Shown: piece by piece, positions 20,852 to 24,261 of the stretch
Layout: every line of letters starts with the position of its first letter
How positions within the stretch are numbered: the stretch's first letter is position 1
DNA from: Brachybacterium huguangmaarense
GTDB lineage: Bacteria > Actinomycetota > Actinomycetes > Actinomycetales > Dermabacteraceae
Direction of reading: 5' to 3'
Assembly: GCF_025725725.1 (NCBI RefSeq)
Contig: NZ_CP107020.1
Coordinates: 3,162,001 to 3,226,000 of the forward strand
DNA length: 64,000 bases
Translations under genes and position numbers: made by a program
The notes under the pieces: model-generated
Seen by the model: only the letters and a program-made list of their open reading frames with translations
What the model was told of the DNA's origin: nothing
The model's database searches: none

Positions 20852-21706
20852 TCAGTAGGTGCGCAGGCCGCGCGCTGCGAACTGGTCGCGCACGCGCTCG
20901 ACGACGCGCTTGTCGGGGGCGCTCACGTCGCGTAGCTGATAGTCGAGCCCGAGGGCGTCCCACTTGTCCTGGCCCATGTTGTGGAAGGGCAGGACCTCGA
21001 CGCGTTCGACAGAATCTGGCCAGCGCTCGACGATGTCGGCCACCCGCTCGACGTTCTCGTAGCCGTCGGACCATCCCGGCACGACCACGAAGCGGATCCA
21101 GATCCGGATGCCGAGCCGTTCGAGGCGGTCGCCGAAGTCGATCGTCGGCTGCAGCTCGCGCGTGGTGAGGCGCTTGTAGACGTCGGGGATGCCGGACTTC
21201 ACGTCGAGCAACACGAGGTCGACGTTCTCGAGGAACTCGTCGGAGGCGTTGGCGCCGAGGAAGCCCGAGGTGTCGAGCGCGGTGTGGATGCCCATGGCCT
21301 TGGCACGCTGCAGGAGGTGCTCGACGAACACCGGTTGCATGAGTACCTCGCCGCCGGACAGGGTGATCCCGCCGCCCGTGGCGCGGAAGACGCCGCGGTA
21401 GCGCTTCATGCGGGCCACGAGCTCGTCGAGGGTGACGTCGTGGCCGTCCTTCATGAAGAAGGTGTCGGGGTTGTGGCAGTACACGCAGCGCAGCGGGCAG
21501 CCGTTGAAGAACACGGTCATGCGGGTGCCGGGGCCGTCGACGGCGGTCACGAGCTCCCAGGAGTGGATCGAGGCGAGGGTCCCCTCGCGGATCGCGGCGA
21601 GGCGGTCCGAGCGCTGGAACTCGACCTCCGACATGCCTTCGATGCCGGCGCCCGAACGTCGCTCCGTCGACACGGTCGGAAGGCCGAGGGCGATCTGCTG
21701 GGGCAT
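20852..21706 (-). CDS. pflA: Pyruvate formate-lyase activating enzyme
   Basis: This 284-residue radical-SAM enzyme installs the glycyl radical on pyruvate formate-lyase. The [4Fe-4S] ligands are C70, C74 and C77 in GCPLRCVYCHNP, followed by the GGG-ITLSGGEVLMQP segment that binds SAM. It carries a longer N-terminus (about 40 residues) than E. coli PflA (246 aa). ATG 21706 has a CAGGAG site upstream. It is the third gene of the split-PFL cluster, about 120 bp after the radical subunit gene. Here its substrate would be the separate small subunit. Confidence 0.93.
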   Translation of the reverse strand: MPQQIALGLPTVSTERRSGAGIEGMSEVEFQRSDRLAAIREGTLASIHSWELVTAVDGPGTRMTVFFNGCPLRCVYCHNPDTFFMKDGHDVTLDELVARMKRYRGVFRATGGGITLSGGEVLMQPVFVEHLLQRAKAMGIHTALDTSGFLGANASDEFLENVDLVLLDVKSGIPDVYKRLTTRELQPTIDFGDRLERLGIRIWIRFVVVPGWSDGYENVERVADIVERWPDSVERVEVLPFHNMGQDKWDALGLDYQLRDVSAPDKRVVERVRDQFAARGLRTY

Positions 21707-21827
21707 GTGCGGCTCCTGGGGGTCGGCTCCCCCGCGGTGCGGGCGGGGCGAGCGCGGCGCCGGGCAGGAGGCCTGCCCGGCGCCGGTGCGGAGGCCGGGG
21801 CGTCGCCCCGGCCGTGGGGGATGGTGC

Positions 21828-22079
21828 TCAGGCGCCCTCGTGGAAGGTGCGGTCGAGCACGTCGAGCTGCTGCTCACGGGTCAGCTTCACGAAGTTCACG
21901 GCGTAGCCGGACACGCGGACCGTGAGGTTCGGGTAGTTCTCCGGATGCTCCATCGCGTCCACCAGGGTGTCCTTGTTCAGGACGTTGATGTTGGCGTGGT
22001 AGAGCCCGGAATCCATGTGGTGCTCGGCGCGGCTCGCCTTCATCGAGGCGAGACGCTCATCGAAGGTCTTCGTGGCCAT
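21828..22079 (-). CDS. grcA: Separate glycyl-radical subunit of pyruvate formate-lyase (GrcA-like)
   Basis: This 83-residue protein equals the C-terminal radical domain of [20 protein letters not shown], then [11 protein letters not shown] with the radical glycine at G58, then [15 protein letters not shown]. coli YfiD/GrcA is a comparable stand-alone domain, but there it acts as a spare part for damaged full-length PFL. Here the neighbouring large subunit has no radical domain, so this protein should be essential for activity. It has its own 19-residue N-terminus ([10 protein letters not shown]...) and an AAGGAGAA ribosome site, and begins 55 bp after the large-subunit stop, so it is not the result of a recent frameshift. 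Confidence 0.9.
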
Positions 22080-22134
22080 GATGTTCTCCTTGGGTGCGGT
22101 GACGGGTGGTGCGGGTCTGCGAGGGACCGGAGGC

Positions 22135-24261
22135 TCAGGCCTCCTCGTCCTCCTCCATGATGAATCCGGCGTCGAGCACGCCCACGAGGTTCTGGATCTG
22201 CTCCTCCTTGGTGCGGCCCAGGCCCTGCGGGGTGATCGTGTTGGTCAGCGAGATGCCGTCGAGGGCGTCGTTGTAGTCGAGCTTGCCGACCGACAGCATC
22301 GAGGCGACCATGCCGTGGGAGTCCATCCCGTTCTCAGGGTTGGCGCCCGGTGCGAACGGCGTGCCCTTCTGGTGGCCCGAGGGGAACGAGCCGGTGGCCT
22401 TGCCGTACACGACGTTCGAGGTGATCGTCAGCACCGACTGGGTCGGGATCGCGTCGCGGTACATCGGGAAGGACTTGATCTTGTCCATCACGGTGTGCAC
22501 GATCGTCGCCGCGATGTCGTCGGCGCGGTCGTCGTCGTTGCCGTAGACGGGGAAGTCGCCCTCGGTGATGTAGTCCGTCACGAGACCGGTCTCGTCGCGC
22601 ACGGGGGTGACGCTCGCGTACTTGATGGCGGCCAGGGAGTCCGCGACGATCGACAGGCCCGCGATGCCGCAGCCCATGGTGCGCACGATGTCGGAGTCGT
22701 GCAGCGCCATCTCGATCGACTCGTAGGCATACCTGTCGTGGCTGTAGTGGATGATGTTGAGCGCCTCGACGTAGGTGCCGACCACCCAGTCGAGCATCTC
22801 CTCGTACTTCTCCCAGACCTCGTCGAAGTCGAGCGGGCCGTCGCCCGTGATGGGCGTGAACAGTCCCTCCTCGGTCACCTGCTTGCCGCTCATCTCGTCG
22901 CGGCCGCCGTTGATGGCGTACAGCAGTGCCTTGGCGGCGTTGACGCGGGCGCCGAAGAACTGCATCTGCTTGCCGACCTTCATCGGGGAGACGCAGCACG
23001 CGATCGCGGCGTCGTCGCCCCAGCGGTCCCGGATCTGGGCGTCGGACTCGTACTGCACCGACGAGGTCTCGATCGAGATCGCCGAGCAGAACTCCTTGTA
23101 GCCCTCGGGCAGCGCGGGGTCCCAGAAGATCGTGATGTTCGGCTCCGGGGCGGGGCCGAGGTTGCGCAGGGTCTGCAGGAGGCGGAACGAGGTCTTGGTG
23201 ACCTGGCTGCGGCCGTCCTCGGAGAACCCGGCGTCCGACCAGGTGGCCCAGTAGGGGTCGCCCGAGAAGATCTGGTCGTAGTCGATGGTCCGCAGGAAGC
23301 GCACGATGCGCAGCTTGATGACGAGCGCGTCGATCATCTCCTGCGCGTCGGTCTCGGTGATCGCGCCGCTGTCCAGGTCCCTCTCGAAGTACGGGTCGAG
23401 GAACGGCGACAGGCGGCCGATGGACATGGCCGCGCCGTCCTGGCTCTTGACCGAGGCGAGATAGCCCATGTAGGTCCACTGGACGGCCTCGCGGGCGGTC
23501 GCGGCCGGGCGCCGCAGGTCCAGGCCGTACTCCTCGCCCAGGGTGATGAGCTTCTTGAGCGCCTTGATCTGCTCGGAGTGCTCCTCGCGGTAACGCGCCC
23601 AGTGCTCGGAGAAGCCCTGGGCGAGCGTGGCCTCCTTGGCGGCGAGCTTGTCGGCGATGAGCGCGTCGACGCCGTACAGCGCCACACGGCGGTAGTCGCC
23701 GATGATGCGGCCGCGCCCGTACGCGTCGGGCAGGCCCGTCACGATGTGCGAGCTGCGGGCGGCGCGGATACGGGGCGTGTAGATGTCGAAGACGGCATCG
23801 TTGTGGGTCTTGCGGTACTGCGTGAAGATCTTCTTGATCTCGGGGTTCGGCTCCTTGCCGGCCTCCTTGATCGCGGCCTCGACCATGCGCCAGCCGCCGT
23901 TGGGCATCATGGCGCGCTTGAGCGGGACATCGGTCTGCAGGCCGACGATCACGTCGTCGTCCTCGCTGATGTACCCGGCGGGGAACGCGTCGATGTCGGC
24001 GGGGGTGTCGGTGTCGACGTCGAAGACGCGGCGACGGCGCTCCTCGGACAGGTAGTTCTTCTCGAGCGTGTCCCACACGCGCAGAGTCTTGGCGGTGGGG
24101 CCCGCGAGGAACGACGCGTCACCCTGGTACGGGGTGTAGTTGCGCTGGATGAAGTCGCGGACGTCGACCCCCTCCTGCCAGGGCCCGGCGGCGAAGCCCT
24201 CCCAGGCGGGAGTGGGATCGGCGGACTCGGCGGAGACTCGATCTGCGGTCGCTTGCGACAT
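22135..24261 (-). CDS. pflB: Pyruvate formate-lyase catalytic subunit lacking the radical domain
   Basis: This 708-residue protein converts pyruvate and CoA to acetyl-CoA and formate. The catalytic cysteine pair is C422-C423 in [14 protein letters not shown], and [17 protein letters not shown] and [12 protein letters not shown] are typical PFL segments. It ends at [18 protein letters not shown], exactly where E. coli PflB (about 760 aa) continues with its roughly 60-residue glycyl-radical domain. That domain is encoded separately just downstream. ATG 24261 is chosen for the GAGGAGG site; the open frame extends 5 codons further. This is the first gene of the pflB-grcA-pflA cluster. Confidence 0.93.

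Follow-up and report, generated by a model that had tools for sequence, protein, structure and literature searches.

A pyruvate formate-lyase of Brachybacterium huguangmaarense that appears to depend on a separately encoded glycyl-radical subunit

We found that the pyruvate formate-lyase (PFL) of Brachybacterium huguangmaarense, an enzyme central to fermentation, is encoded in two pieces, a large protein that carries the catalytic cysteines and stops before the glycyl-radical domain with its oxygen-sensitive radical, and an 83-residue protein that consists of this domain and a short extra N-terminus. Comparison across genomes makes it very probable that the two form an obligate two-subunit enzyme, in which the small protein is best read as a subunit and not as a repair part. 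The window analyzed here is the whole 64,000-nt stretch of contig NZ_CP107020.1 (assembly GCF_025725725.1, positions 3,162,001 to 3,226,000), and the genes concerned lie on its minus strand in the order large PFL, small protein, activase. The features are given below in window positions, following the direction of transcription.

22135..24261 (stop included), minus strand: large subunit, truncated PFL, 708 aa from its ATG, identified by its TIGR01255 match
22993..22998, minus strand: codons of the catalytic pair Cys422-Cys423, conserved in the alignment
22086..22091, minus strand: AAGGAG, ribosome-site-like, 6 nt upstream of the small-subunit ATG, from reading the sequence
21828..22079, minus strand: small subunit, separate glycyl-radical domain, 83 aa, GrcA2, identified by its NF008341 match
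22014..22079, minus strand: extra N-terminus of the small subunit, about 22 aa, with the conserved motif T-[FY]-x-E-R-L-x-x-M-K-A-x-R
21906..21908, minus strand: codon of the radical glycine Gly58 (E. coli PFL Gly734), in RVSGYA
21793..21813, minus strand: perfect 10-bp hairpin in the gap between small subunit and activase, from reading the sequence
21755..21785, minus strand: perfect 14-bp hairpin in the same gap, from reading the sequence
20852..21706, minus strand: PFL-activating radical-SAM enzyme, 284 aa from the chosen ATG, by TIGR02493, with CxxxCxxC read in the sequence

The large ORF matched the PFL model TIGR01255 over positions 1–679 of 744, with 964.1 bits against a curated cut-off of 994.2, and corresponded to E. 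coli PFL residues 9–696; its residue 703 aligned with E. coli residue 696, only five residues followed, and the frame stopped at residue 708. By the marks of TIGR01255 membership, it retained the Cys pair and the substrate residues and lacked a radical glycine in the same chain, a full-length match and a score above the cut-off. Other truncated large subunits did pass this cut-off, in 29 of the 57 genomes of the order survey described below, some of them only with neighbors in frame. In our alignment, both cysteines were present in every row, comprising 30 split Actinomycetales loci, 14 split Coriobacteriia loci and 26 one-piece PFLs, and the same rows kept the equivalents of E. coli Arg176, Arg435 and Trp333, which we take to be the substrate (pyruvate-binding) residues. 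The truncated large subunits are probably functional. An acidic tail of the large subunit was considered as a docking partner and dropped: among the Actinomycetales tails, 28 of 30 of which were readable by motif, 17 were net acidic, 7 net basic and 4 neutral.

The small protein scored 167.1 bits against NF008341, which NCBIfam names “autonomous glycyl radical cofactor GrcA2” (cut-off 145), and is thus a member of that family, while it remained below the cut-offs of the GrcA/YfiD model TIGR04365 (78.2 bits, cut-off 170) and of the GrcA3 model NF038360 (102.7 bits, cut-off 158). Its residues 24–81 matched E. coli PFL 700–757, and residues 23–81 matched YfiD 68–125. The small-subunit ATG lies 55 nt past the stop of the large gene, and a purine-rich stretch similar to the one preceding it was present upstream of most of 30 small genes, being weak in L120 and L129. 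Within the extra N-terminus, R9 and M13 were identical in all 30 split Actinomycetales loci. Taken together with the large ORF, these observations bear out the sequence-only reading of this locus, which had described a large subunit with Cys422-Cys423 and a stop before the radical domain, followed by a separate 83-residue protein with radical Gly58, its own start, a ribosome site and an extra N-terminus. In a phage collection, 1539 of 50,697 records matched the small protein, mostly enterobacterial phages by name; some records labelled as Staphylococcus or Listeria phages matched at 76–78% and may hold host DNA.

The third gene, which that reading had called an activase, proved to be one by both marks of a PFL activase, scoring 302.2 bits against TIGR02493 (cut-off 231.75) and carrying the radical-SAM CxxxCxxC. 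In all 30 split Actinomycetales loci the activase lay 3′ of the small gene on the same strand, with a match that began 13–325 nt on in 29 of them and 2,219 nt on in L134. In the window, the gap before it (21707–21827), which holds both GC-rich hairpins, folded with −78.1 kcal/mol (z −4.98). We considered whether the hairpin that precedes the activase is a hallmark of the split and rejected this, because strong folding also occurred after one-piece PFLs: with gaps cut at 150 nt, so that those of split loci may extend into the activase gene, z was −2.5 or lower before the activase in 21 of the 29 split loci that could be scored (30 tried) and in 7 of the 12 one-piece loci that could be scored (of the 23 printed, 11 had gaps too short). 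Strong folding is a feature of the gap between PFL and activase, not of the split.

To place the split in the family, a Gly_radical match was sought in a sample of 47 genomes. Such a match was found in 23, all of which were split at the same place, with an own start and the conserved small-protein N-terminus, and at these 23 junctions the stop of the large gene was followed by 38–110 nt leading to the small-protein ATG, with a purine-rich, ribosome-site-like stretch before it. The claim that the split is natural, for which a comparison of PFL length and neighboring gene across the family had been proposed, therefore held in every matching genome. In the remaining 24 of the 47 genomes we found neither PFL piece and no glycyl-radical match, and hence PFL itself is dispensable in the family. 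The presence of PFL in this sample was patchy even within the genus.

In the organism's own genome (99.99% complete), there were two Gly_radical matches in total and no PFL beyond the two matching pieces; a second full-length PFL, which the sequence-only reading had itself named as the finding that would speak against it, was searched for here and not found. Of 396 genomes sampled from the order, 183 had a match to the small-protein model and 57 passed the cut-off, the latter distributed over groups f3 (30 genomes), f1 (19), f9 (4), f6 (2), f12 (1) and f16 (1). Each of these 57 genomes had one large TIGR01255 match ending at model position 678–702, where ends beyond 685 represent reading through a stop, and one small TIGR01255 match running from 652–685 to 741–744; a full-length PFL was present in none of the 57. 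One genome (G324) had two more weak TIGR01255 matches (at most 61.8 bits) in another frame of 884 aa, and some split genomes had a third Gly_radical match, the one read (L176) being an anaerobic ribonucleotide reductase. One-piece PFLs were present in other genomes of the same order, and the small protein thus accompanies truncated PFLs only. At the level of genomes, then, the claim that the two-subunit form is obligate appears to stand, given that neither the own genome nor any of the 57 GrcA2-bearing genomes has a full-length PFL. From this, the split looks real, obligatory and old, which suggests that a component known for repair in other organisms can be a permanent subunit.

The main rival to this conclusion is that the small protein is a spare part of the GrcA/YfiD type for a PFL cut by oxygen, and that the large protein is decayed or partly active. 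The NCBIfam name of the family, which speaks of a cofactor and not of a subunit, agrees with this idea, as does the fact that phage genes annotated as such cofactors match the small protein. However, a one-piece PFL to be repaired accompanies the small protein neither in the own genome nor in any of the 57 GrcA2-bearing genomes, the five tested catalytic residues are intact in 30 of 30 large rows, which is unexpected for decay, and the long N-terminus of YfiD is missing from the small protein, which reaches only 78.2 of the 170 bits demanded by the GrcA model. We therefore regard a spare-part role as very unlikely. That the split is a frameshift or an assembly error in one genome is scarcely credible at all, as all 23 matching family genomes and all 57 order-sample genomes are split, the family spacers measure 38–110 nt and the new N-terminus is conserved.

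In the two-subunit enzyme that we favor, the large subunit would supply the barrel, the pyruvate-binding residues and the Cys pair, and the small subunit the glycyl-radical loop and the C-terminal helix, the two associating so that the active site is formed jointly. PflA would place the radical on Gly58 of the small subunit, from where it would move to the Cys pair of the large subunit to give a thiyl radical there, and pyruvate and CoA would be converted to acetyl-CoA and formate, as by E. coli PFL. That a PFL in two pieces can work follows from the E. coli enzyme, of which, in the part of the source available to us, residues 1–695 together with YfiD are stated to be as active as wild type once activated (PMC8683613). 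The same portion of that paper reports that this cut leaves no measurable YfiD binding and a 32-fold lower radical (PMC8683613). Because the natural cut lies at about the point where this E. coli pair fails, the partner would have to be held by other means, and the natural pair would need to bind otherwise than E. coli PFL and YfiD do. The conserved new N-terminus of the small subunit is the obvious candidate for holding the partner, and we infer that this segment is the likely dock.

A second type of split, at another point, was found outside the Actinomycetales. In groups f35 and f56 of the phylum sample, which we infer to be Coriobacteriia (f56 being named by its likeness to Collinsella), 27 of 396 genomes had a free radical domain in a separate frame of 87–147 residues (92–104 bits); 14 of these 27 loci were fetched and all 14 were split, and three f35 genomes (L172–L174) had a one-piece PFL. 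The small protein of this type belongs to NCBIfam GrcA3 (NF038360). Here the break follows E. coli PFL residue 680. The helix EQVDNLVxxxDGY is part of the small protein, and the large one has a new C-terminal tail that is often acidic and in many cases contains cysteines. Among the large C-termini of L188–L264, many short tails combined acidic residues with Cys clusters such as CACC and CGCC.

Relatives of this enzyme were reached through the Protein Data Bank, in which two entries named “Formate acetyltransferase”, 38lb (739 aa) and 38la (687 aa), both lack a radical-domain match. Searching named genomes for relatives of 38lb gave 582 loci, and among the best 80 of them, 71 were split, 8 were one-piece and 1 (L235, with little sequence past the large gene) was without a small gene, proportions that are no measure of frequency since the query is itself of the split type. 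These best 80 loci included Olsenella, Collinsella aerofaciens, Catonella morbi, Ruminococcus, and MAGs labelled Gastranaerophilales and Spirochaetales, and the nearest among them to a 265-residue stretch of 38lb were the split PFLs of Olsenella (84%), followed by those of Collinsella and Catonella (74%). A full-length PFL was found in none of the 17 GrcA3-type genomes examined, while two one-piece controls each had one. When the phylum of one of these loci was sampled evenly, 2 of 299 genomes, the center included, were over the GrcA3 cut-off, and the GrcA3 type is not general in the sampled phylum; the same sample held two further short frames (G987 and G831) at 122–124 bits.

Several single loci in these searches had related arrangements. 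Short frames with glycyl-radical domains and low GrcA3 scores in the 299-genome sample (G991, 110 aa; G927, 82 aa; G1030, 100 aa) may be split enzymes or fragments. Olsenella phocaeensis (L190, G789) has two radical-domain frames (C1:99242-99472 and 104659-104889) flanking a single truncated PFL. At L177 (2995–5634, minus strand), a CutC/dehydratase-like glycyl radical enzyme stops short of its radical domain and a separate 98-residue ORF follows 24 nt on; this was seen in one genome (G732) and may be a frameshift.

The presence of the second type weakens one part of the sequence-only reading, namely that the split suits a facultative actinobacterium, as a similar split at another point occurs in Coriobacteriia, Clostridia and other gut MAGs. 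These lineages include strict anaerobes, and the split is thus not tied to facultative life.

We also compared the large subunits in a tree of 70 rows, from which Clostridia were left out. Starred branches separated the two split types, with one-piece PFLs on both sides, and this topology together with the differing breakpoints argues for at least two origins of the split. Within the Actinomycetales, the first large-subunit tree placed the one-piece PFLs L152, L153, L154 and L157 inside the split loci, which would mean re-fusion, and the careful tree placed four of f4 there too; a constraint keeping the 30 split rows as one group was not rejected on the large subunit (AU p 0.106; p 0.063 with the first four included). 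When activase and radical domain were added, L152, L153, L154 and L157 fell outside, the four one-piece f4 PFLs fell inside on a long branch, and holding the split rows together was rejected (p 0.013). As the trees conflict, we make no claim of either a single split or a re-fusion within the Actinomycetales.

Why PFL should be split is a separate question, and two answers are compatible with a two-subunit enzyme. Gene fission, or the fixation of a former spare part, may have occurred without any benefit, an explanation that we consider plausible, although short of probable. It accords with two breakpoints in two lineages and with the rarity of the GrcA3 type in one phylum (2 of the 299 genomes sampled passed its cut-off), and the helix before the Actinomycetales break seems to be doubled, once in the large C-terminus and once, diverged, in the small N-terminus, which fits a spare part having come first. 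This duplication is a weak, alignment-based reading, however, and the retention of the split across six family groups of the order sample speaks against a lack of benefit.

Alternatively, separate translation may allow the radical subunit to be made in excess, or to be replaced after oxygen damage while the large subunit persists, which we think possible and somewhat doubtful. According to the sections available of two papers, PFL is cleaved by oxygen at the radical glycine (PMC12288474, PMC8683613), and in the enzyme described here such a cut would ruin only 83 residues. The small gene has its own start and a ribosome-site-like sequence, and in the window the strong hairpin lies 3′ of the small gene, not 5′. 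Against such replacement, strong folding before the activase is found after one-piece PFLs as well (7 of 12 scored), and the second split type occurs in lineages that include strict anaerobes. A fuller scenario, which we offer as speculation and rather doubt, is that the radical domain is a consumable subunit, so that oxygen would destroy the 83-residue part alone and fresh copies of it would join the retained large subunit; in the Actinomycetales, a spare part would have become compulsory after PFL lost its radical domain, and the GrcA3 lineage would have reached the same outcome separately by clean gene fission.

The proposed two-subunit form changes how such domains may be viewed. In the literature consulted, repair is the enzymatic role given to free glycyl-radical domains, and the title of PMC10853565 credits a YfiD with an effector role unrelated to it. 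In the enzyme described here, the radical seems to come from the free domain alone, and a GrcA2 or GrcA3 annotation should not count as evidence of oxygen repair. The enzyme would be a natural system in which radical and catalytic subunits can be separately purified, labelled and exchanged, and docking of the radical loop, the site of the activase and the swap of a damaged radical domain, for which cut E. coli PFL has served so far, become directly testable.

Among known systems, the enzyme resembles E. coli PflB (TIGR01255; PDB 1h16) in sequence over residues 9–696, in the Cys pair, the substrate residues and the radical glycine, and in the type of activase, and differs from that single chain of 759 residues in being encoded by two genes, with the break adjoining E. 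coli residue 696. With the spare parts YfiD/GrcA and T4 Y06I (TIGR04365; PDB 6owr) it would share a separate glycyl-radical domain that completes a PFL without one of its own. In the text of PMC8683613 accessible to us, however, E. coli YfiD rescues a PFL cut by oxygen at Gly734, serves cells that make a one-piece PFL, and needs residues 696–733 of the cut PFL to bind, which the large protein described here does not have (PMC8683613). The small protein is a member of GrcA2 (NF008341), a name that implies repair, yet all 57 order genomes over its cut-off have a truncated PFL only; in GrcA3 (NF038360) there is likewise a separate radical domain near a truncated PFL, with the break after E. coli residue 680 and not 696. 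The structure 38lb has the GrcA3-type breakpoint, unlike the PFL of the window, and 38la ends at the same point. On these grounds 38lb, and perhaps 38la as well, resembles the large subunit of a GrcA3-type split PFL, although 38la may be an engineered truncation. Because 38lb has no radical-domain match and is nearest to split Coriobacteriia PFLs, and 38la shares its end, a GrcA3-type enzyme has probably already been studied by another group; no free small subunit of either split type was among the PDB matches. In full-text literature searches, outside bioRxiv and most subscription journals, a naturally split PFL was described in none of the titles and abstract openings listed, which for the broader searches were 30 of 2,906, 25 of 392, 15 of 73 and 20 of 467 hits. 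The split class II ribonucleotide reductase of Pseudomonas aeruginosa, in the part of its description available (PMC4520616), is also a radical enzyme in two polypeptides, with a different enzyme and a different radical. The GrcA2 and GrcA3 sequence families are thus already known from NCBIfam, and what appears to be new is a PFL whose radical subunit is separate and, it seems, obligate.
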